Source: Candidatus Kapaibacterium sp. (GTDB lineage Bacteria > Bacteroidota > Ignavibacteria > Kapaibacteriales > UBA4661). Taken from it: 64,000 nt of DNA. Positions within the stretch are counted from its first letter, which is position 1, and the number at the start of each line of letters is the position of its first letter. The translations under genes and the position numbers were made by a program. The notes beneath the pieces were generated by a model. That model searched no databases, was not told where the DNA came from, and worked only from the letters and a program-made list of their open reading frames with translations. Positions 19,443 to 64,000 of the stretch are shown piece after piece. The stretch spans positions 1 through 64,000 of the forward strand of contig RDXM01000107.1 of assembly GCA_004292595.1 (NCBI GenBank). Reading direction: 5' to 3'.

Positions 19443-19450
19443 TTTTTTTT

Positions 19451-19619
19451 GTAACCAGTCAGGTATTCGCAATGGAGGGGGACGCAGATGAAGATGATTA
19501 AATGGATGAAGATGATGCAAGAGCAAAAGATATTACCACTAGGTACGCGTTCAATCTATCATCTTCATCCATCGAATCATTTTCATCTGCGTCCAAAAAA
19601 TCAAGACCTGACCAGTTAG
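19451..19619. repeat. Family D long inverted-repeat element, copy 1
   Basis: Outer ends GTAACCAGTCAGGT and ACCTGACCAGTTAG enclose a second inverted repeat, GACGCAGATGAAGATGAT... on the left and its complement on the right (about 19490-19594). The arms are built from the direct repeat GATGAAGATGAT. It is non-coding, lies just after the amidohydrolase stop, and matches 51370-51569. Confidence 0.85.
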
Positions 19620-50698: not shown

Positions 50699-51217
50699 AT
50701 GCGTACTTTCCCTCTTGCCGCAAGCACCGTCGCACTAGCATTTGCCATGAGTGCGTGTAGTTCATCGGTTCGTTTTTCTTCGCGTGGTGTGCAGAACAGT
50801 TCGCCGCCCAGCAATGGCGGGTTGTTTGCCTCAACACCAGCAACAACGCCTAGTTCAGGCAAACAGACGGCTGCACCCAAAACGAGCCAAGCAAATGCCA
50901 GTACCCTCAAAACCAGTGATATGAATTTTAGTGGTATTGCGTCCTACTACGGCGATGAATTTCACGGGCGAAAAACAGCCAATGGTGAAATTTATGACCG
51001 TTCAGAATTCAGCGCGGCGCATCGTTCTTTGCCCTTCGGAACATATCTGAAGGTGCGAAATCTCAGTAGTGACCGCAGCGTGATTGTCCGCGTGAACGAC
51101 CGAGGTCCGTTCAAGGCAACGCGCGTTTTAGATGTATCCTTCGCTGCTGCGCAGGAGCTAGGCTTAGTGAAAACAGGAACAGCAGAGGTAGAAGTGACCG
51201 TAATGGAAGCGCAGTAA
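50699..51217 (+). CDS. rlpA: RlpA-like double-psi beta-barrel lipoprotein
   Basis: A 172-residue lipoprotein. The signal peptide ends in a lipobox, AMSACSS (Cys at about residue 20). A low-complexity Ser/Thr/Ala linker follows, then the DPBB domain from SGIASYYGDEFHGRKTANGE to VRVNDRGPFKATRVLDVS, which carries the conserved His, Asp and Arg of the RlpA core. RlpA proteins are septal-ring lytic transglycosylases in some species. There is no C-terminal SPOR domain, so only the DPBB part is present. The frame is open from 50465; ATG 50699 gives the lipobox. Confidence 0.9.
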   Translation: MRTFPLAASTVALAFAMSACSSSVRFSSRGVQNSSPPSNGGLFASTPATTPSSGKQTAAPKTSQANASTLKTSDMNFSGIASYYGDEFHGRKTANGEIYDRSEFSAAHRSLPFGTYLKVRNLSSDRSVIVRVNDRGPFKATRVLDVSFAAAQELGLVKTGTAEVEVTVMEAQ

Positions 51218-51369
51218 GCACCTTAATTATGAAATACGGCACTGACCCTGAAGAAAAAAAAGCCTGTATGCTAGACTCTACCACGCTTGTAGGGAAAAAT
51301 ACTCAAAAGTATAAAACTTGAAAAATAGGCTGTGAGGCTCGACAAATACTTGCGTTGAAGGTGATTAAA

Positions 51370-51569
51370 AAATATTTGTAACTGGTCAGGTCTCAACAAT
51401 GAAGAGGGGACGCAGATGAAGATGATTGAATGGATGAAGATGATAGTGATAAAAAAAATCAGAGCGTGAATGCACGTTGTTGATGTTTTCTGCATTTTCA
51501 TCATCTTCATCCATTCCATCATCTTCATCTGCGTCCAAAAAAATCATGACCTGACCAGTTACGAATATT
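51370..51569. repeat. Family D long inverted-repeat element, copy 2
   Basis: Ends AATATTTGTAACTGGTCAGG and the complement (ending AGTTACGAATATTT) match over about 23 bp with one change. An inner pair, GGACGCAGATGAAGATGAT... and its complement (36 of 37 identical), surrounds a 60-bp unpaired centre. It lies in the 735-bp gap upstream of rpoB and matches 19451-19619. Confidence 0.88.
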
Positions 51570-51626
51570 TATACCTAGTAAGTTGTACAACTACCACAAA
51601 CAAAATTTCAGGAAATCAAGATTTTT

Positions 51627-51687
51627 TTTGTCAAATCCTAAAAAAAGTGTATTTTCTATGTTCGTTAAAATGCGCCCTACGCATTTT
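51627..51687 (+). promoter_or_regulatory. Candidate rpoB promoter and leader hairpin
   Basis: TTTG (51627-51630) is followed after 19 bp by TATTTTCT (51650-51657), the spacing and approximate sequence of Bacteroidota -33/-7 boxes. Just downstream, AAAATGCG and CGCATTTT (51667-51687) form an 8-bp hairpin. The roughly 265-bp leader to rpoB is AT-rich with no gene. Confidence 0.4.
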
Positions 51688-51952
51688 AAGGTTCTTAATA
51701 TGAAACTTTTTATTGTTAGCGCGTTATTCCCTACTTTTTGAAAAAATTTCGCACAGCAATATCCTTACAAGCGCAATGTCCGTTTGTATATAGCTTTACC
51801 ATCGACTTCGGATTTCCCGATTTTTCGTCTTTTTTAAAAAGAAAGAGAAATCGGGAAGTCCTTGTTTTGTTCAATACAAACTACATTGCGCTGCAATACT
51901 TGACTATAAACTTACACACATTCTCACACTTCACCCTTTACGGGAGGCAACT

Positions 51953-54900
51953 TTGAGTACAATGAACGGCAAAAATGGCTCACTTCACGGCGCATCATAT
52001 GGCGCGTACAAAGAGCGTATTTCGTTCGCGGAATTCCCCGCAAAATCTAGCCCGATAGACCTTCTTTCGGTGCAGATGCACTCCTACACAGAATTTTTGC
52101 AGGACGAAGCAGAACCCGCAAGCCGCAGAAATCTTGGGCTTCAGCAAGCATTCCTCACCAATTTCCCGATTTCTGATGCGCGTGAAATCTACGAATTGGA
52201 GTTCATTGAGTATTTCATTGAGCGTCCGAAATATACGGAAACCGAATGCCGTGAGCGCGAACTCACCTACGCACGTCCTTTAAAAGCCAAACTGCGTCTC
52301 TCGTCCAAAGCCGACCCGAAATCTGAAGACTACATCGAAACCATTGAACAAGACGTGTATTTGGGCAATGTTCCTGCGATGACTCCACGCGGTACCTTCA
52401 TCATCAACGGCGCAGAGCGCGTGATTGTATCGCAGTTGCACCGCTCGCCAGGTGTGTTTTTCTCGGATGCCATGCACCCAAACGGTACGCGCGTCTTTTC
52501 GGCACGGATTATCCCGTTTCGTGGTTCCTGGGTGGAGTTTACGACGGACATTCACCAAGTCATGCACGTTTACATTGACCGCAAGAAGAAATTCCCCGTA
52601 ACGATGCTCCTTCGCGCTCTCGGCTACTCTTCTGATGAGCAGATTCTCGACCTTTTCAACTTAACAGAATCCTTAGCCGCACAAGAAGTTGGCGACCAAC
52701 ACATCAATCGTCGCGTGGCTGCTGACGTTGTGGACTTCTCAACGGGTGAAATTATCGCCAGCCGCGACGTAATCTTGGATGAAGGCATGATTGAGGCAAT
52801 CAAAGCCTCGAAGGGCATTCAAGAGGTGAAGCTCTTCAATTATACCGCCGCAAGCGAAGAGCCGATTATTGCGCGTACCTTAGCGAAAGACCCCTCGCGC
52901 ACCCGCGAAGATGCCTTGGAAGGAATTTACCGCCAGTTGCGCTCTGGCGAAGCTCCCGACTTGGAGACCGCACAATCACTGCTTGATAAGCTCTTCTTCA
53001 ACCCGAAACGCTATGATTTGGGCTTGGTTGGACGCTATCGCATGAATAACAAGCTGGAAATCGGCATTGACCCCGAAACTACGACCTTGACGGTGGATGA
53101 CATCATCGCAATTATCAAGTATTTGATTGAGCTTCGTGCTGGTCGCAAGCCAGTGGACGACATTGACCACTTGGGCAATCGCCGCGTTCGCACCGTTGGT
53201 GAGCAATTAAGCGCACAGTTGAACGTGGGCTTGTCGCGCATGGCACGGACAATCAAAGAGCGTTTGAACATTCACGACACCGAAACGCTTACGCCCGCAG
53301 ATTTGGTTAATGCTCGCACGATTTCGAGCGTGATTAACCAGTTCTTCGGCACAAATCAGTTGTCGCAGTTCATGGACCAAACCAATCCGCTTTCGGAGAT
53401 GACACACAAACGCCGTATGTCCGCGCTTGGTCCTGGCGGCTTGACCCGCGAGCGTGCTGGCTTCGAGGTGCGCGACGTTCACTACACGCACTACGGTCGT
53501 CTCTGCCCGATTGAAACGCCTGAAGGTCCGAACATTGGTCTTATTTCCTCGCTTTCGATTCATGCGCGGATTGACCCCTTTGGTTTCTTGGAAACGCCGT
53601 ATTTGCGCGTTGAGAATGGCAAATTGACCACAAAGATTGAGTTTTTGACCGCAGAAAAAGAGGAAGACCGCATCATTGCGCCGTCTTCAACGATTGTCAA
53701 TAAAAGTGGTGTTTTGACCGAAGAGCGCGTAAAAGCTCGTCGTTCTGGTGATTTCGTGATTGTTTCGCCCAACGACGTAGAATACATGGACGTTGCGACA
53801 AATCAAATTGCCAGCGTTGCGGCTTCGCTCATTCCGTTCTTGGAGCATGACGACGCGAACCGTGCGCTCATGGGTTCAAATATGCAACGCCAAGCGGTGC
53901 CGCTTCTGCGCCCGAAAGCTCCGCTTGTGGGAACAGGTATGGAATACATCGTGGCAAAAGATTCTCGCGCAACGATTGTGGCGGAGCATAATGGAACGGT
54001 AGAGTATTCATGCGCCGACTTCATCCGCATTCGCTACGATGACACGATTCCCGAAGATGAACGCCTCGTAACATACGATTACAACCCCGTTGTAACCTAT
54101 CATCTTATCAAATTTTTCCGCACCAACCAAGACACCTGTATCAATCAGCGTCCGACGGTGGTTGCGGGACAAAAAGTGAAGCGCGGTGAGGTGCTGGCGG
54201 ATTCTTCTTCGACCGAAATGGGCGAACTCGCGCTTGGTCGCAACGTGCTTGTTGCGTTCATGCCATGGAGCGGGTACAACTTTGAGGACGCTATCGTTAT
54301 CTCGGAAAAAGTAGTGTCGGAAGATATTTTCACCTCGATACACATTGAAGAATTTTCGCTCCAAGTCCGCGATACAAAGCGCGGTGAAGAAGAATTGACG
54401 AAAGAAATCCCGAACGTCAGCGAAGAAGCAACGAAAGACCTCGACGAGGACGGTATCGTGCGCTGCGGCGCAGATGTGCGCGAAGGTGATATTTTGATTG
54501 GTAAAATCACACCGAAAGGCGAAACCGACCCAACACCAGAAGAGAAGCTGCTTCGCGCTATTTTCGGCGATAAAGCTGGCGACGTAAAAGATGCTTCGAT
54601 GAAAGCACCTCCAGGCTTGAAGGGTGTTGTTATCAATACGAAACTCTTCACGCGCCGCCTTATGACGCGCGAACAGGACCTGCGCCGTCAGGAAAAAGAA
54701 CGTCAAGACGCGCTGAATACGCAAGAAGCAAATGGCATCCACGAACACAATCAAGATTCAGCAAAGCGTATTGCGAAATTGTTGGATGGACACAAGGTTG
54801 TGGGCGGTATGCGCACTGTGCCGGGCGATTCGATTTTCCGTGCTGGAACGGCATTGAAATCAGATGAATTGGAAAAGAAATTCCGCGAAAACCCGCATTT

Positions 54901-55792
54901 CTTCGCTGAGTTCGACGTAAAAGAGCAATGTGTTGAGGATGCTCACACGATGGACTTACTGCGCCGCCTCATTCAGGGCTATAAGCACAAACTCGCTATC
55001 ATCAAGGACGATATTCGCATTGAGCGTCAGAAAGTCGTTACGGGCGATGAGTTGCAGCCAGGTATTATGAAAATGGCGAAAGTGTATGTTGCGAAAAAGC
55101 GCAAGCTCCAAGTCGGTGATAAAATGGCTGGTCGTCACGGAAACAAGGGCATTGTGGCGAATATCGTTCCGCAAGAAGATATGCCGTTTATGCCAGACGG
55201 AACTCCAATGGACATCGTTCTGAACCCGCTTGGCGTACCGTCGCGTATGAACTTGGGTCAGCTCTACGAAACCGCGCTCGGCTGGGCGGCAATGAAGCTC
55301 GGCGACAAATTTGCTTCGCCAATTTTCGACGGCGCGTCTTGGGACGAAGTCGGCGAATACTTGGAAAAAGCAGGTTTGCCACGCGACGGAAAAACAGTCT
55401 TGTACGACGGACGCACAGGTGAAACCTTCGACAACCGCGTAACAGTCGGCGTGATTTATATGCTGAAACTCTCGCACTTGGTGGACGACAAAATCCACGC
55501 GCGCTCAATTGGACCATACTCGCTCATTACGCAGCAGCCTTTGGGCGGTAAAGCGCAATTCGGCGGTCAGCGTTTCGGTGAGATGGAGGTGTGGGCGTTG
55601 GAAGCATATGGCGCAGCGCACACGCTTCAGGAAATTCTCACGTTGAAATCCGACGACGTACAAGGTCGCGCAAAGGCATATGAGGCAGTTGTAAAAGGCG
55701 AAAACCTTCCGCAACCGCACTTGCCAGAATCCTTCAACGTTCTTATTCGTGAGTTGCAGGGCTTGGCGTTGGAAGTGCGCGTGGAGGAGTAA
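51953..55792 (+). CDS. rpoB: DNA-directed RNA polymerase subunit beta
   Basis: A 1279-residue core polymerase subunit of normal length for the phylum. Identifying stretches are [19 protein letters not shown] in the rifampicin region, [20 protein letters not shown], and [19 protein letters not shown] near the active site. The start is probably TTG 51953, which has GGGAGG (51942-51947) five bases ahead; ATG 51962 is too far from it. rplJ-rplL are not upstream, where rlpA stands instead. rpoC is not adjacent but 1.43 kb downstream, after three small genes. Confidence 0.97.
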   Translation: [1279 protein letters not shown]

Positions 55793-55811
55793 ATTTTTAG
55801 TGTTCAATGAT

Positions 55812-55853
55812 TGAGTGTTGAGTTTTGAATGTGTTTTTCAGGCTCAACACTCA
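55812..55853 (+). terminator. Hairpin just after rpoB
   Basis: TGAGTGTTGAG (55812-55822) and CTCAACACTCA (55843-55853) form an 11-bp stem with a 20-base loop, 20 bp after the rpoB stop. No T-run follows, so partial attenuation or RNA processing is likelier than full termination, given that rpoC lies downstream. Confidence 0.5.
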
Positions 55854-55882
55854 TTGTTGTTCATAGTTCATCAGGCAAAACA

Positions 55883-56089
55883 ATGAAAATCATCAACGTA
55901 GATAGCGAGATAATGAGCGGAACACCCGTCTTTAACGGCACTCGTGTACCGCTTCAGAACTTGTTTGATTATCTCGAAACAGGTGATTCGATTGAGAAAT
56001 TTTTGGAAGATTTTCCTTCGGTTCGGCGTGAGCAGGTTGTTGGGCTTTTGGAGATTTCGCAGGAAAGTATTGCCGAAATACTAAACTAA
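55883..56089 (+). CDS. DUF433 protein (antitoxin-like)
   Basis: A 68-residue cytoplasmic protein. The DUF433 hallmarks are visible: IMSGTPVFNGTRVPLQNLFDYL and FLEDFPSVRREQVVGLL, followed by a short helix. The family has a helix-turn-helix fold and is often the antitoxin half of a pair with a PIN-like DUF5615 toxin. No such toxin is next to it: the following gene is an exported barrel. ATG 55883 is used; the frame is open from 55829. It lies between rpoB and rpoC on the same strand. Confidence 0.85.
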   Translation: MKIINVDSEIMSGTPVFNGTRVPLQNLFDYLETGDSIEKFLEDFPSVRREQVVGLLEISQESIAEILN

Positions 56090-56098
56090 TGAGGTCTT

Positions 56099-56665
56099 AT
56101 GCGCTACGTTCTTTGTCATATTGTGTTGTTATGCGCCTTCGCGCTTGGTGTGCTGGCGCAGGAAGCGCAGAAAGACTCGGTGCCGCAAGCATCGGAAATA
56201 CGCACTGCCAACAACAACTTTTTTCTTGAAGCAGGCGGGAATGCAATCGCGTATTCGCTCAATTACGAGCGCATCATGGGCAATCACTTTGTTTTGCGCG
56301 GCGGGCTGAGTTTTTTGCCCGTACAAAGCGCAGAGTTCCGCTACCTTGCGATATTGCCCGTGTCGGTTTCATACCTGATTGGTTCAACGCATTATCTTGA
56401 ACTTGGCTTGGGAACTATGTTTGCAAGCTACAACGGTACTGAAGCACGCTGGCAATACAATCGTGGAAGTGCGATAGATATTTCGGCTGAAGTTACGGGC
56501 ACTCCCAAGTTTGCTATTTCCCCTTTTCCGATTGCCATCCCAATCATTGGTTATCGGTGGCATCCTCTCGGAGGCGGCTTAAACGCTCGAATAGCATTTA
56601 CGCCACTTGTGAGCTTTCTTGGAATACTTCCATTTGGTGGTATCAGCCTTGGTTGGAGCTTTTAA
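56099..56665 (+). CDS. Small outer-membrane beta-barrel protein
   Basis: A 188-residue exported protein. The signal peptide ends at VLAQ (about residue 20). The mature part has about eight alternating strands (FFLEAGGNAIAYSLNYERIM, FVLRGGLSFLPV, YLELGLGTMF) and ends FGGISLGWSF with the aromatic terminus of outer-membrane barrels. I do not recognise a named family. It starts 10 bp after the DUF433 stop, so the two are probably cotranscribed. Confidence 0.7.
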   Translation: MRYVLCHIVLLCAFALGVLAQEAQKDSVPQASEIRTANNNFFLEAGGNAIAYSLNYERIMGNHFVLRGGLSFLPVQSAEFRYLAILPVSVSYLIGSTHYLELGLGTMFASYNGTEARWQYNRGSAIDISAEVTGTPKFAISPFPIAIPIIGYRWHPLGGGLNARIAFTPLVSFLGILPFGGISLGWSF

Positions 56666-56734
56666 GCAAGTGTTTTGACGGTATTTCAGCACATCTGACT
56701 ATCACAAAGCATTACAGTAAAACACTTTAGAGCT

Positions 56735-57151
56735 ATGGGACGAACATATCAAACGGCAACTATTGAAAATTTCAACGACATGGCGAAAGTTGTTGAAGGA
56801 ATACTCACGCCTGACAAAGTACGCTCTTTAGAAGTTGATTTTTTTGTCGATACTGGCGCAGCTATGCTCTGCTTACCTCAAAAAAACATTAAGCAGCTAG
56901 GCTTGCTCAAGATGCGTAGTATGCGGACGCGCACTGCAAACGGCGTGATAGATGCTGATGTGTACAGCCCCGTTCGCATCAAGGTTCTAGATCGAGAAGC
57001 TATCACCGAAGTAATGGCAATTTCCGACGAAACACCGCCGTTACTGGGTTATCTGCCGCTTGAAATGCTCGTTTTGGTCGTTAGTCCAACTGAGCAAAAA
57101 CTTATCGGCGACCCATTTCATGGCGGGAAGTATATGATAGATATGTTTTAA
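56735..57151 (+). CDS. Retropepsin-like aspartyl protease family protein
   Basis: A 138-residue cytoplasmic protein of the clan AA aspartic protease type. The catalytic loop reads FFVDTGAAMLCLP (Asp-Thr-Gly, about residues 38-50), and the hydrophobic second loop of the fold is LLGYLPLEML. One domain is present, so it would act as a dimer, as in retropepsins. The substrate is unknown. It stands 73 bp upstream of rpoC in the same direction, the last of three genes interposed between rpoB and rpoC. Confidence 0.8.
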   Translation: MGRTYQTATIENFNDMAKVVEGILTPDKVRSLEVDFFVDTGAAMLCLPQKNIKQLGLLKMRSMRTRTANGVIDADVYSPVRIKVLDREAITEVMAISDETPPLLGYLPLEMLVLVVSPTEQKLIGDPFHGGKYMIDMF

Positions 57152-57224
57152 TCAAACATTCCTATCGCATTAACACACGAACAATCACAATTTCCAATTT
57201 CAAACAAGCAGAGGCATACCCATT

Positions 57225-60200
57225 ATGCAATCACGCTCCATTCCTCGTAAAGGCTTTTCGCGTGTTTCTATTCGCATTGCATCATCCGACGAGATTTTGC
57301 ACTGGTCGAAAGGCGAAGTTACCAAGCCCGAAACGATTAATTACCGCTCGTTCCGTCCAGAAAAAGACGGTCTTTTTTGCGAGAAGATTTTCGGTCCCGT
57401 GCGGGACTGGGAATGCGCTTGCGGTAAGTACAAACGCATTCGTTACAAAGGTATCGTGTGCGACCGTTGCGGCGTAGAAGTTACCCAGAAATCTGTTCGC
57501 CGCGAACGCATGGGGCATATCACGCTTGCCGTGCCTGTCGTTCACGTGTGGTTCTTGCGCTCTCAGCCCAGCAAAATTGCGGCTGTTATCGGCTTGCCCG
57601 CGAAAGACGTTGAGCGCATCGTGTATTACGAATCCTACATCGTTGTTCAGCCAGGAAACACTGGTTTGCAAGTGAAAGACTTGCTCACTGAAGAAGAGTA
57701 CTTGCGCATCATGGATTCCTTGAAGCCTGAAGAGCGTAGTTTGGACGATGACGATCCGAAAAAATTTATCGCGCTCATTGGCGGCGAAGCGGTGAAAGAA
57801 CTTCTGAAGCGCGTCGATCCAGAAAAAGATGCTGGCGTTCTCCGTGCAATGGTTAAAGAAGAAACATCGCAGCAGAAAAAAGCTGACCAGTTGAAGCGTC
57901 TTCGTATCTTGGAAGCATTCCGCGACAGAGGCGACGGACGCTTGCCAAACGACCCATCCTGGATGGTGCTGGACGTTGTTCCCGTGATCCCACCAGAACT
58001 TCGCCCGCTTGTGCCGCTTGAGGGTGGCCGGTTTGCAACGTCGGACTTGAACGACTTGTATCGCCGCGTGATTATCCGCAACAACCGTTTGAAGCGTCTT
58101 ATCGACATCAAAGCTCCCGAAGTAATTTTGCGCAACGAAAAGCGTATGCTTCAGGAGGCAGTTGATTCCTTGTTCGACAACAGTCGTCGCTCTACAGCCC
58201 GCGCAGAATCTCAGCGTACGCTCAAATCTCTTTCCGATATGTTGAAAGGGAAAACTGGACGTTTCCGCCAGAACTTGCTTGGAAAGCGCGTGGATTATTC
58301 TGGTCGTTCGGTTATCGTTGTTGGTCCGACGCTGAAAATTTGGGAATGCGGTCTGCCGAAAGATATGGCGGTGGAACTCTTCAAGCCGTTTATTATTCGC
58401 AAATTGATTGAGCGCGGGCACGTGAAAACTGTAAAAAGCGCGAAGAAAATGGTGGAACGCAAAACGACCGAAGTATGGGACATCTTGGAGCAGGTAATTC
58501 AAGGACACCCTGTCCTCTTGAACCGCGCTCCAACGCTGCACCGCTTGGGTATTCAAGCATTCCAGCCGCGCCTTATTGAAGGTAAAGCTATTCGCTTGCA
58601 CCCGCTCGTGTGTACGGCGTTCAACGCGGACTTCGACGGCGACCAAATGGCTGTCCACGTGCCACTTTCGCACGAAGCCCAGTTGGAATCAATTTTGCTC
58701 ATGCTTGCCTCGCACAACATTTTGCACACGCAAAACGGCGCACCAATTACCGTACCGTCGCAGGACATGGTCTTGGGTTGCTATTATTTGACAAAAATGC
58801 GCCGCTCGACCGAAGAAGAGAAAATCAAAGGCGAAGGCATGATGTTCTACGGCGCGGAAGACGTGATTATGGCATTCAACAATGGCGTTGCCGAAATGCA
58901 CGCCAAAGTGAAAGTCCGCTTGGATGGTCAAATGGTAGAAACCACCGTTGGTCGCGTAATTTTCAATCAAATTGTTCCGCACGAAGTGGGCTATTTGAAC
59001 GAGGCGTTGGGCAAGGGTCGTTTGCGCCAAATCATCGGTCTCTGCTTCCAAAAAGCGGGCATGGCAAAAACGGTTGATTTCTTGGATGACTTGAAAGAAG
59101 CGGGCTTCCGCGCTGCTACACGCGGCGGTTTGTCGGTGAGCATTCAGGATTTGATTATCCCTGAAGAAAAGAACAAGCTCATTGATGCGTCGCAGATTGA
59201 AGTAGATAAAATTGAAAGCTATTATCAAGCGGGCGTGATTACAAGCGGCGAACGATACAACAAAATTGTTGATATTTGGTCGTCGGCTACAAACCGCATC
59301 GCTGATAAACTCTACAACGAACTTCAAAAGCACAAGCAAGGTTTCAACACCTTCTGGATGATGATGGATTCGCAAGCGCGTGGCTCGAAAGAGCAGATTC
59401 GCCAGCTTGCGGGTATGCGCGGACTTATGGCGAAACCGAAAAAATCCGTAACGGGTTCGACGGGCGAATTGATTGAAAACCCGATTATTGCGAACTTCAA
59501 AGAAGGTCTTTCGATTTTGGAATACTTCATCTCCACGCACGGTGCGCGTAAGGGACTTGCCGATACCGCGCTTAAAACGGCGGATGCAGGCTACCTCACA
59601 CGCCGCTTGCACGACGTTGCGCAGGACGTGATTATTTCCGAAGACGATTGCGGTACGATTCGCGGTATGGAGCTTCGCGCCTTGAAAGACGGCGAAGAAG
59701 TGAAAGAATCGCTCTACGAGCGCATTCTTGGTCGTGTGTCGCTGATGGAAATCACCGACCCGCTTACGGGCGAAGTGCTTGCGAAAAAAGGTGAGTTGCT
59801 CGATGAAAGCGTTTCACGCAAAATTGAAGATACAGCCATCGAAAGCGTGTTTGTGCGCTCGGTGTTGTCGTGCGAATCGCGTCAAGGTATTTGCGCGAAA
59901 TGCTACGGTCGCAACCTCGCAACGGCGCGGCTTGTCGATACAGGCGAGGCTGTTGGTACGATTGCAGCGCAGTCAATCGGCGAGCCAGGTACGCAGCTGA
60001 CGCTCCGCACCTTCCACACAGGCGGTACGGCATCGCTTATCACGGCGCAATCGAACATCACGGCGAAATTCGACGGTGTGATTCAATTCGACCGCGTAAA
60101 GACCGTCAATGCTGAGATTGAGGACGATTCGGGCATGGCAGTTCGCAAAGAATTGGTTGTGAATCGTGGAGGTATTATCAATGTGATTGAACCAGATTCT

Positions 60201-61556
60201 AACCGCACTCTCACCAAGTACGAAGCCATGTACGGCGCGGATTTGCGTGTACAAGACGGTCAAATGGTGAAAAAAGGCGAACTCATTTACGAGTGGGACC
60301 CGTACAATGCCGTGATTATTACCGAAAAAGAAGGCTACGTGCGCTACCGCGACATGATTGACAACGTTACCTTCCGCGAGGAAATTGACGAGCAAACTGG
60401 GCACATCACCAAAACCATCATGGACTCGCGCGACCGCACGAAATCGCCAATGATTGTGATTGTGGATGAAAAAGGTACGGAGTTGAAATCGTACAGCTTG
60501 CCAGGAAACGCGCAGCTTACGGTGGATGAAAACGAATACCTTACCGTCGGTATGTCGGTGGCAAAAATCCCACGTGATTCGGGCAAAACCCGCGATATTA
60601 CGGGCGGTTTGCCGCGTGTAACGGAGCTGTTCGAGGCACGTTCACCGCAGAAATCTGCCGTTGTTTCCGAGATTGACGGAACGGTTGTGTTTGACAGCAA
60701 AATGAAGCGTGGTGCGCGTGTTATTCGCGTTGTCAGCTTCGATGGTCAAACTGAAAAATCGTATCCGATTTCGCTCAACAAATACGTTCTCGTGCAAGAC
60801 GGCGACACGGTTCGCGCAGGCGACCGCCTCACAGACGGCTCGATTGACCCGCATGACATCTTGCGTATCAAAGGTCCGTCGGCGGTGCAGGAATACCTTG
60901 TGAATGAGATTCAAGAGGTGTACCGTATGCAGGGCGTGAAGTTGAACGATAAGCACATCGAGGTAATTGTGCGCCAAATGTTGCAGAAGAGCCGCGTAAT
61001 GGATCCAGGTGATTCGCAATTCTTGGAAGGCGACCAAATTGACCGTATCAAGTTCTTGGACGAAGCGGAACGCATCAAGGAATTGGTCGTGGTTACGGAC
61101 AAGGGCGATACGAAGTTCAGCGAGCATCAGATTGTTGGCAAAAAACGCTTCCGCGAGGTGAATACCGAGTTGAAGAAAAAAGACAAAGCCCTTGCGGTGT
61201 CTCGCTCTGCCGAGCCAGCGATTGCCGAGCCAGTCTTGCTTGGAATTACGCAAGCGGCATTGAACACCGAGAGCTTTATTTCGGCGGCTTCGTTCCAAGA
61301 AACTACGCGCGTTTTGACCGAAGCTGCTATTGCTGCGAAGGTTGATAATCTCGTTGGTTTGAAGGAAAACATCATTTTGGGTCAGCTCATTCCCGCAGGA
61401 ACAGGCTTGCGCCGTTGCCAAGATATTGTCATTCAAACCGAAATCGGCAATATCTTCGACCACGACGAATACTCACTTTCTTTGCCAGAGCGTCTTATGC
61501 CAGCTCCACCGCCACCGCCAACGAAAGGTCGTCGTAAAAAATCAGAAGTTGCCTAA
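57225..61556 (+). CDS. rpoC: DNA-directed RNA polymerase subunit beta'
   Basis: A 1443-residue catalytic polymerase subunit. The zinc ribbon is [20 protein letters not shown] (about residues 66-85). The active-site metal triad NADFDGDQM is near residue 467. The second zinc site ([14 protein letters not shown]) and the C-terminal [18 protein letters not shown] are intact. The tail ends in a Pro/Lys run ([16 protein letters not shown]). The leader has no strong Shine-Dalgarno; a putative AG-rich stretch, AAGCAGAGG, lies about 15 bp before ATG 57225. It ends at a strong bidirectional terminator. Confidence 0.97.
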
Positions 61557-61588
61557 GGAATATATCTTCCTTGAGCGCAGACAATAAA

Positions 61589-61627
61589 AAGCCCCGCAAG
61601 AGCAGCAATAATGCGCTTGCGGGGCTT
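61589..61627 (+). terminator. Strong, probably bidirectional terminator after rpoC
   Basis: AAGCCCCGCAAG (61589-61600) pairs with CTTGCGGGGCTT (61616-61627), a 12-bp GC-rich stem with a 15-base loop. T-rich sequence follows on the plus strand and an A-run precedes the stem, so it can also stop the convergent SDR gene. Confidence 0.88.
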
Positions 61628-61676
61628 CTTTGTTGATAGCACTTGGTGATTTTTTTCGCCATTGGGAGCGCAGATT

Positions 61677-62408
61677 TCACAAATCTCCGTGCTGCGGACG
61701 CAAGACAAGTTCTTCTGGCATTATGCGGGGTGGAAGGCGAAGTGCGGCAAGCAGAGCTTCCGCAATATCGTCGGGCTGCATCATGCGTGGCTCAAATTCA
61801 GTGCGCGATTCCACACTCCAAATGTCCGTCGCCGTTGCACCAACAAGTAAATCAATAACTTTGATACCATCCTTACGCACCTCCTCGCGCAGCACACGGC
61901 TCATTGCCAAAAGACCTGCTTTGGAAGCCGCATACACACTTGCTCCTGCGAATGTCTTGACCGCTGCAACGGAATTGATATTGACAATCACACCAGAAGT
62001 ACGCCCACGCATAGCGGGCAAAACCGCTTGTGTACAAGCGATTGCGCCATGAAGATTTGTCCGGAGCATCGCCTCTGCGTCATCAAGCGAAAGCTCGGCA
62101 AATGGCGCAAATATCCCAATCCCAGCATTATTCACGAGAATATCTACCGCACCGTGCTGAAAAGCAATTTCCTTGTATGCCGCTTGAACACTCGTATTGG
62201 AGGTTACATCACACGGAACAATCGTGTATCGTGCTTCCGAGTGAAGGCTTGCAATGGTATTGGTGAGTGCGTCCTGCGAACGAGCCGAAAGAAGAAGATG
62301 CGCACCTGTTCGCGCAAGCACTTTCGCGCACGCCGCACCAATACCGCGACTTGCACCCGTTATCCATAGTGTGCTTTCGGCAAGATTGAGGGAAGAAGTG
62401 TTATTCAT
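61677..62408 (-). CDS. Short-chain dehydrogenase/reductase
   Basis: A 243-residue NAD(P)-dependent oxidoreductase of the classical SDR type. The cofactor loop is TGASRGIG (about residues 18-25), followed by NNAG and the catalytic Ser (INSVAAV) and Tyr-Lys pair (SVYAASKAG). The basic Arg after strand 2 (SARSQD) suggests NADPH. The substrate cannot be read. It is convergent with rpoC and 63 bp downstream of the kinase at the window end. Confidence 0.92.
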   Translation of the reverse strand: MNNTSSLNLAESTLWITGASRGIGAACAKVLARTGAHLLLSARSQDALTNTIASLHSEARYTIVPCDVTSNTSVQAAYKEIAFQHGAVDILVNNAGIGIFAPFAELSLDDAEAMLRTNLHGAIACTQAVLPAMRGRTSGVIVNINSVAAVKTFAGASVYAASKAGLLAMSRVLREEVRKDGIKVIDLLVGATATDIWSVESRTEFEPRMMQPDDIAEALLAALRLPPRIMPEELVLRPQHGDL

Positions 62409-62471
62409 AGAATTGATACAGTTGTGAAGATAATGAACACGGCATAAATATCGTACGTTTAGTTTGTACGG

Positions 62472-64000
62472 TTAGTCTGCTTGCGGCAATTCCACAATAA
62501 AGGTTGCTCCTGCTCCATACACGCTTTCACACCAGACCTCACCGTTCATTGAACTCACCATTTTTTTGACAATCGAAAGCCCTAAACCCGTTGATTGCTC
62601 GCCGTTTGTAGGCTTTGCCGAAAGGCGCATGAACTTCCCGAATAATTTCTTTTTATCGTCGTCAGACAAACCCGGACCTTCGTCCTGCACTTCAATCCGA
62701 ACACACGACGGCGAAGATTGAACAATTTCACTTTCATTTCCATTCCCGCCAAGCACCTTTTCATGTGGTGTCCAGGCTCTCTCGCCATAAATGCGCATCC
62801 ACACATTTTTGCCCGAAGGCGAGTATTTAATGGCATTGGAAACGATATTTTCTAAAATTTGCATGACGGCAGTTTGGTCGCCAAGGCAGTCCGCATCGGA
62901 GAAGCTGTCGAAATGTAGCTGTACGCCTTTGGCACCGGCTCGCGCTTCGTATTCTTCAAAGACCGAATACGCCGCAACTGAGATATTAAATGCCATGACG
63001 TTCAGCGTGATTGCGCCGCGCTCAATCGCATTCACGTTCAAAAGATTGCTGATAATCCGCGACATTTGGTCGGAGGAGGAAATAATTGTTGTGGTGAAGC
63101 GTTGGCGGTCGTGGTCGGAGACGCTTTGGTCGTGCATCAGCTGTGCCAAGAGCTTGATAGATAAAATTGGATTCTTGAGGTCGTGTGCGACAATCCCAAA
63201 AAATTCATTTTTCTCCGTGTTTAATTCCTCCAAATGCTCGTTTTTGCGAGCGATGACATCGTTTGCAAGCTCAAGTTCATTGTTTGTTTTTTGCAATTCC
63301 ACTGCTGCTTTTTGCTTAATCCGGTAGCCATTGGCAAGCAAAATCACCACCGCCGCAACCAGCACAAAACCGATGGCAAGAAACAAAAAGCGTTGATTCT
63401 GTAACTGAATTTTTTGCTCTTGCAGTTGTAAATCGCGTTGGCTTTTTTCGATAGAACGCTGCTTTTGCACGAGTTCGTACCGAGCTTCGGCGTTGGCAAG
63501 GCGTTTATCGCTTTGGTCATTGAAAATACTATCCTTGAGCTGATTATCAAGGCGAGCGTATTCGAGCGCGAGTTTGTAGTTGCCTTGTGCGGAGTAAAAA
63601 TCGGATAAACTAAAGTAACAGGCTTGCAGGAGCGAGCGCGAGCGTAGTTCTTGTGCGAGCGCGAGCGCGTTGTTGAGATATTTTTTTGCGTTGGTGTAGT
63701 CGTGCTGCCCGTTATAGACATTGGCAAGATTGATGTACAGTTCGCCAAGCCTGAGTTTATCGGGTGCGGAGGCTTCCAAAATGGTTTGCACTTTGAGTAA
63801 ATACGGCAATGCCTGCGCATAATACTCGCGCACAAGATAAATTGTCCCAATGCCGTTGAGCGCAGTAGCAATGCCCATTGTATTGTTCAATTCTTTCCAA
63901 ATGCCAAGTGCTTGTTCATAATTTTTGAGCGCAATCTCAACGCTATCCTGCTCGTCGTACACGAGGGCGATATTGCTCAACGTATTGGCAAAACCCTGCT
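62472..64000 (-). CDS. TPR-containing sensor histidine kinase (5' end outside window)
   Basis: At least 509 residues are in the window; the frame is open to base 64000, so the N-terminus lies beyond it. Tetratricopeptide repeats come first (for example ALPYLLKVQTILEASAPDK, ANVYNGQHDYTNAKKYLNNA). One membrane helix (AIGFVLVAAVVILLANGY), a coiled coil, HisKA with IVAHDLKNPILS, and an ATPase domain (ENIVSNAIKYSP, DEGPGLSDDDK) ending in STGLGLSIVKKM follow. The layout, TPRs and helix before a HisKA, is common in Bacteroidota. It shares the conserved tail of the other four kinases. Confidence 0.9.
   Translation of the reverse strand, partial: QGFANTLSNIALVYDEQDSVEIALKNYEQALGIWKELNNTMGIATALNGIGTIYLVREYYAQALPYLLKVQTILEASAPDKLRLGELYINLANVYNGQHDYTNAKKYLNNALALAQELRSRSLLQACYFSLSDFYSAQGNYKLALEYARLDNQLKDSIFNDQSDKRLANAEARYELVQKQRSIEKSQRDLQLQEQKIQLQNQRFLFLAIGFVLVAAVVILLANGYRIKQKAAVELQKTNNELELANDVIARKNEHLEELNTEKNEFFGIVAHDLKNPILSIKLLAQLMHDQSVSDHDRQRFTTTIISSSDQMSRIISNLLNVNAIERGAITLNVMAFNISVAAYSVFEEYEARAGAKGVQLHFDSFSDADCLGDQTAVMQILENIVSNAIKYSPSGKNVWMRIYGERAWTPHEKVLGGNGNESEIVQSSPSCVRIEVQDEGPGLSDDDKKKLFGKFMRLSAKPTNGEQSTGLGLSIVKKMVSSMNGEVWCESVYGAGATFIVELPQAD

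Follow-up and report, generated by a model that had tools for sequence, protein, structure and literature searches.

The genes for the two large subunits of RNA polymerase, rpoB and rpoC, are adjacent in nearly all bacteria. This adjacency is usually taken to reflect selection that keeps the synthesis of the two large polymerase subunits in balance.

Insertions are known in the wider rpoBC-str-S10 cluster (PMC8046335). Separately, modules of the toxin-antitoxin type are known to be dropped into operons (PMC2701414): an MNT-HEPN module, for example, sits in the lysine operon of Thermus thermophilus HB8 and not in that of HB27 (PMC2701414). DUF433, also called COG2442, is a recognised antitoxin family (PMC2701414, PMC3834315). 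In a search of open-licence papers, no report was found of genes, or of a variable accessory locus, between bacterial rpoB and rpoC.

Here, we describe an uncultured, Kapabacteria-like genus in which the rpoB-rpoC junction is likely to be an accessory-gene hotspot inside an essential operon. The content of the junction changes as genes are gained, deleted or duplicated and as alleles are replaced, and what remains in place throughout is rpoB, the hairpin that follows it, the rpoC leader and rpoC itself.

The split rpoB-rpoC junction

The window, that is, the whole stretch of 64,000 nucleotides that was analysed, lies on contig C72 of a 4.6-Mb draft genome of 199 contigs (G000). In the window, rpoB (51953..55792, + strand) has an open reading frame of 1279 aa, which matches all Rpb2 Pfam domains; it begins with TTG, and an in-frame ATG at 51962 is an alternative start. 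The rpoC gene (57225..61556, + strand) has an open reading frame of 1443 aa and the Rpb1 Pfam domains. Both genes are full length and all their Pfam domains are matched, in agreement with the preliminary description, in which both subunits look intact. Within the genus and family, amino acid identity is 83-98% for RpoB and 85-98% for RpoC (full-length copies). Among named sequences, rpoC is matched most closely by 'Ignavibacteria' MAGs such as GWF2_33_9, which we take to belong to the Kapabacteria group.

Elsewhere, two other genomes have rpoC in pieces. In G033 (G033:C8:743273-747528), a genome of ~10 contigs, the gene is present as two abutting frames, residues 1-473 and 474-1432, which may reflect an error in sequencing, a true frameshift or a gene that is split; rpoC is whole in G038, from the same genus as G033. 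In the low-completeness genome G008 (G008:C13:7402-10460), the rpoC match is in two pieces with ~116 bp between them.

The spacer between rpoB and rpoC (55793-57224) spans 1432 bp and carries three small genes, all in the operon direction (+), as Pfam matches and open reading frames bear out for a junction previously described as split in just this way. Its G+C content, 44.6%, is slightly lower than the 51% of the flanks. The first gene (55883..56089, + strand) is of the DUF433 (COG2442) antitoxin type and encodes a 68-aa protein with a match to PF04255 (E=4.6e-16). The family assignment made earlier stands, but the start, which had been put at 55829, is better placed at 55883 because relatives start there; the longer frame from 55829 begins within the hairpin. 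A DUF433-PIN type II toxin-antitoxin pair is recognised by an adjacent PIN or DUF5615 toxin gene, and the window has none. The DUF5615 partner, present in G004, G007 and G002, is absent here and, since the toxin partner is missing, the window DUF433 gene is an orphan.

The second gene (56099..56665, + strand) encodes a putative outer-membrane protein of 188 aa. Its signal peptide and C-terminal Phe suggest that the protein is probably secreted and located in the outer membrane. The further label of an outer-membrane barrel, given in the preliminary description, is plausible and not proven, because the protein has no Pfam or NCBIfam match; a single-sequence structure model (pLDDT 40) was uninformative. 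Homologues are present at the same locus in G005, G007, G004, G001 and G002.

This gene is followed by a short stretch (56673..56732, + strand) made up of a scrap of the 3' end of a PD-(D/E)XK-type gene plus spacer. The stretch falls in an 86%-identity alignment to G005, which begins inside the 3' end of the corresponding G005 gene, and its local alignment score is 31 against a shuffled maximum of 24. As the gene is whole in G005, the version of the insert in the window arose by deletion.

The third gene (56735..57151, + strand) encodes a 138-aa protein, which is predicted from its DTGA motif and profile matches to be a retropepsin-like clan AA aspartic protease, as had been proposed. Matches to PF13975 (E=3.9e-8) and PF13650 are above cut-off, and that to NCBIfam TIGR03698 (clan AA) is below it. 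A PDB sequence search with the three window proteins gave no meaningful match, and none of the three was matched when PADLOC was used for anti-phage annotation. The spacer ends in a conserved rpoC leader (57177..57224, + strand) with an SD-like AGAGG. Alignment with relatives shows that this leader is identical to that of G005 at 48/48 positions and is common to all inserted species and, in part, to the uninserted species G003.

The preliminary description had suggested that rpoB-rpoC spacing be compared across related genomes. When this is done, seven of the eight genomes compared in the genus carry an insert of 1.2-5.4 kb: the gap is 1435 bp in G000, 3683 bp in G005, 2791 bp in G007, 1158 bp in G006, 2465 bp in G004, 1600 bp in G001 and 5381 bp in G002. 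The genomes of the genus are all multi-contig drafts, and the G002 insert contains a 10-N gap. The gap is 147 bp in G003, the uninserted member of the genus, and 109 bp in G009, from the same family. Among 49 order-level relatives it ranges from 14 to 144 bp (median 61), and 77 named loci from wider bacteria have a median of 66 bp, with one locus, L107, at 1.9 kb. The comparison supports the split as a genus trait, confined to this genus among its relatives. In a tree of RpoB+RpoC, the seven inserted species stand apart from G003 with a bootstrap of only 50.

Operon context, hairpin and transcription

In the canonical rplKAJL-rpoBC arrangement, rplL lies directly upstream of rpoB, and rpoB and rpoC are adjacent (< ~150 bp apart in relatives). 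In the window, the two are 1432 bp apart and rplL is not upstream of rpoB. In the outgroups G009, G016, G018 and G024, rplL adjoins rpoB, and fusA-rpsL is kept after rpoC in G016 and G018. No rplL was found near rpoB in the window or in G001 and G004-G007, where it is on another contig; nusG-rplKAJL is intact but located elsewhere. Loss of the ancestral rplKAJL-rpoBC linkage in the genus is shown by this gene order. The upstream neighbours of rpoB differ between most species of the genus, and despite this reshuffling outside, the block of rpoB, insert and rpoC stays together in all seven. As a control, str-S10-spc (19 query junctions) is colinear and free of inserted genes in the same eight genomes over the length that their contigs cover, and the split is therefore not a matter of general operon decay. 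A general operon breakdown is rejected for both controls tested, str-S10-spc and nusG-rplKAJL, which are intact.

Upstream of rpoB, at 51370-51570, lies a nested palindrome of ~200 bp, with arms of 37 nt at 97% and 23 nt at 96%. Similar copies occur in the window at 19448-19618 and at L164 and L177, and none was found at the same place in G005. It looks like a small dispersed palindromic element.

The hairpin reported earlier right after rpoB was recovered (55812..55853, + strand): its arms, 55812-55822 and 55843-55853, form a perfect 11-bp stem (TGAGTGTTGAG/CTCAACACTCA) that is followed by no U tract. The folded region of the window has z = -3.9. In the comparison of the seven inserted species the hairpin is strong in all, with z from -4.6 to -5.5. 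The stem arms are almost invariant in six of the seven; the seventh, G001, has an unrelated, different hairpin, which is equally strong. The hairpin was not found after rpoB in the uninserted G003 or in the family outgroup G009, and Rfam gave no known RNA element in 51000-62500. We would guess, by preference, at a role in mRNA stability or processing, with the hairpin acting as a boundary and not as a full terminator; it could also be a partial terminator.

The 5' arm of the hairpin (window 55812-55831) is also a copy of a dispersed, sometimes tandem 14-bp motif, GAGTGTTGAGTTTT, which has 18 other sites in G000. With up to 2 mismatches, the motif has 19 sites against 2 for a reversed control. 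The sites are mostly in intergenic-looking DNA, and at rpoB the inverse arm of the motif makes the hairpin.

The inserted genes are most likely carried on the rpoBC transcript, with rpoC being reached by read-through. This is the simplest view because the genes are co-directional, the link between rpoB and rpoC persists and no terminator was recognised in a simple scan of 55700-57300 with an E. coli-type model, which may miss terminators of this phylum. The alternative is that there are two transcription units, with the rpoB transcript ending or being trimmed at the hairpin and rpoC served by its own promoter in or near the insert. This possibility is the less likely one. It fits the strong hairpin after rpoB in every inserted species (the different but equally strong one of G001 included), the absence of the hairpin from G003 and G009, and the conserved rpoC leader. 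However, the hairpin has neither a U tract nor a terminator call, and no sigma-70-like site was found on the coding strand with an E. coli-type promoter model, which may miss promoters of this phylum. Matches to the Bacteroidota-type -33/-7 promoter were found in three relatives, where they are only inside coding sequence, and there is none in the window. In addition, the outer neighbours of rpoB and rpoC vary but the two genes have not come apart, which speaks in favour of their still being coupled. Under the preferred read-through reading, the accessory genes would ride on a transcript that continues into rpoC.

Turnover of the inserted genes

The seven inserted species carry ~37 inserted genes of ~12 families, all on the operon strand, as counted from our own gene models on open reading frames and with families assigned by Pfam and PADLOC. 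The families include DUF433, DUF5615, a VapB-like gene with a VapC-like PIN gene, the outer-membrane protein, a PD-(D/E)XK-type protein of ~290 aa, DUF6934 with a partner of ~70 aa, retropepsin-like proteases, a secreted protein (G006), HEPN and an 80-aa companion. None of the families is intact in every one of the seven species. Family matches place several of the genes either in families of the toxin-antitoxin type (DUF433/DUF5615, VapBC-like, HEPN) or among nuclease-like genes. PADLOC gave a hit for the PD-(D/E)XK protein of G005 to a CRISPR-associated PD_DExK model (E=1e-41) and a weak one for the HEPN protein to a candidate model.

In G000, G001, G002, G004, G005 and G007, as many as 21 matches to the PD-(D/E)XK-type protein occur in a single genome, some of them in tandem arrays of ~210-aa copies, as at G002:C181. 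Full-length, 290-aa matches occur only at the rpoB-rpoC locus.

Content differs even between close relatives. G000 and G005, whose RpoC proteins are 98% identical, share the genes for DUF433, the outer-membrane protein and the protease, and the G005 insert has an additional 1.6 kb before the protease gene and 0.7 kb after it. In G006, the PD-(D/E)XK gene has lost its middle by an internal deletion, and in G004 the HEPN gene, whole in G002, is reduced to its ends; each of these internal deletions keeps both gene ends.

The pair G004 and G002 bears on exchange. Their RpoB and RpoC are 99.8-99.9% identical over the parts covered, with dS of 0.25 (rpoB) and 0.20 (rpoC). Their inserts differ in content and, in the shared genes, synonymous divergence is several-fold above that of rpoB and rpoC, with dS of 1.52 for DUF433, 0.82-0.88 for the outer-membrane protein and 0.81 for PD-(D/E)XK. 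Similarity is high across rpoB and the hairpin, drops just after the hairpin and is 96% in the last 366 bp. The contrast in dS between flanks and insert, together with the onset of divergence after the hairpin, is the pattern that replacement of alleles between conserved flanks leaves behind. In dS, the DUF433 gene of G004 lies closer to its G000 counterpart (0.52) than to the copy in its sister G002 but, at 68 codons, this is suggestive only. The features of an accessory-gene hotspot are thereby found together: conserved rpoB and rpoC flanks, a variable mosaic content in a gap of 147-5381 bp, and alleles discordant with their flanks (dS 0.20-0.25 against 0.81-1.52 in G004/G002).

In the hotspot reading, exchange would take place via homologous recombination where the flanks are conserved, in rpoB and rpoC. 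The inserts would persist because they are seated between two genes that the cell cannot lose. A stronger form, which we regard as unlikely, is that of a maintained exchange site, at which species exchange modules of an addictive or defence type through recombination in the flanking polymerase genes and the hairpin serves as exchange border and as insulator of the rpoB mRNA. If true, accessory genes would be transcribed in step with RNA polymerase synthesis and would be hard to delete.

A rather improbable explanation is that the insert is neutral debris, tolerated, decaying and without function. Consistent with debris are the gene scraps and internal deletions, the orphan DUF433 gene without its DUF5615 partner and the turnover of content among sister species. 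However, dN/dS against G005 is 0.14 for DUF433, 0.23 for the outer-membrane protein and 0.068 for the retropepsin-like protease, values from which the three window genes are judged to be under purifying selection, and the insert is still populated in seven of the eight species.

An integron-like or other site-specific cassette array is very unlikely. The modules do consist of one gene or a gene pair, in one direction and in variable number, but the window insert has no direct repeats, no recombinase is found among the inserted genes, and sister inserts differ by deletions inside genes and not only at clean cassette borders. Integron or transposon borders were rejected on the lack of direct repeats and recombinase in the window insert; a search within the insert for an integrase with repeated recombination sites, or for any recombinase or site-specific signal, found none.

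It is equally hard to credit that the inserted genes were recruited to regulate the balance or activity of the polymerase subunits. Their location between the two subunit genes would suit such a role, and DUF433 proteins are capable of DNA binding and autoregulation (PMC3834315). Against this, content varies by species with no family in all seven, and the DUF433 gene shifts in position, being first in most species and near the end in G007.

Finally, a misassembly or MAG chimera that put unrelated genes between rpoB and rpoC can be dismissed almost outright. Although the window genome consists of 199 draft contigs, the arrangement, with varying content, recurs at one position in seven species whose genomes were assembled independently, and most of these share homologous genes, the hairpin and the rpoC leader. 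The G000/G005 flanks also align into the insert without interruption. Misassembly, which the preliminary description had named as refuting, is thereby excluded, as is chance.

Comparison with described systems

Insertions near the cluster and modules within operons are known, and the novelty here lies in accessory genes that vary at a site between rpoB and rpoC, a situation for which no earlier report was found in open-licence papers. A genus with insertion, deletion and swapping at this junction, together with the uninserted congener G003, is a natural experiment that bears on the importance of rpoB-rpoC spacing, cotranscription and stoichiometry. The locus is a rare gene-swapping hotspot within one of the most conserved operons known, and shows that toxin-antitoxin-type modules can reside in an operon that is essential, where a gross loss of the locus would kill the cell.

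A similar split occurs in the MAG of a Dysgonamonadaceae bacterium (L107, 8064-9973), where intact rpoB and rpoC are likewise 1.9 kb apart with small ORFs between them. The genes there are others (a 158-aa lipoprotein-like ORF and another small ORF) and the bacterium is of a different order; its split is apparently independent of that in this genus.

As in the wider cluster, small gene sets have been inserted; in some lineages covered by the cluster-related text of PMC8046335, parts of the cluster have then become fully disconnected. In that same text, however, the insertions lie between operons or at rplL-rsmC and not at rpoB-rpoC, and the inserted genes track the species tree, whereas here both content and alleles turn over among sister species.

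In G004, G007 and G002, a DUF5615 (PIN-like) gene comes directly after the DUF433 gene, a pair that resembles the VapBC10-type PIN-COG2442 arrangement (PMC3834315). The window differs from that arrangement in that its DUF433 gene is an orphan, the toxin partner being absent. Mobile toxin-antitoxin-type modules (PMC2701414) are likewise two-gene modules within host operons. In contrast to those, the host operon here encodes the essential subunits of RNA polymerase, and many families interchange at one site across a genus.
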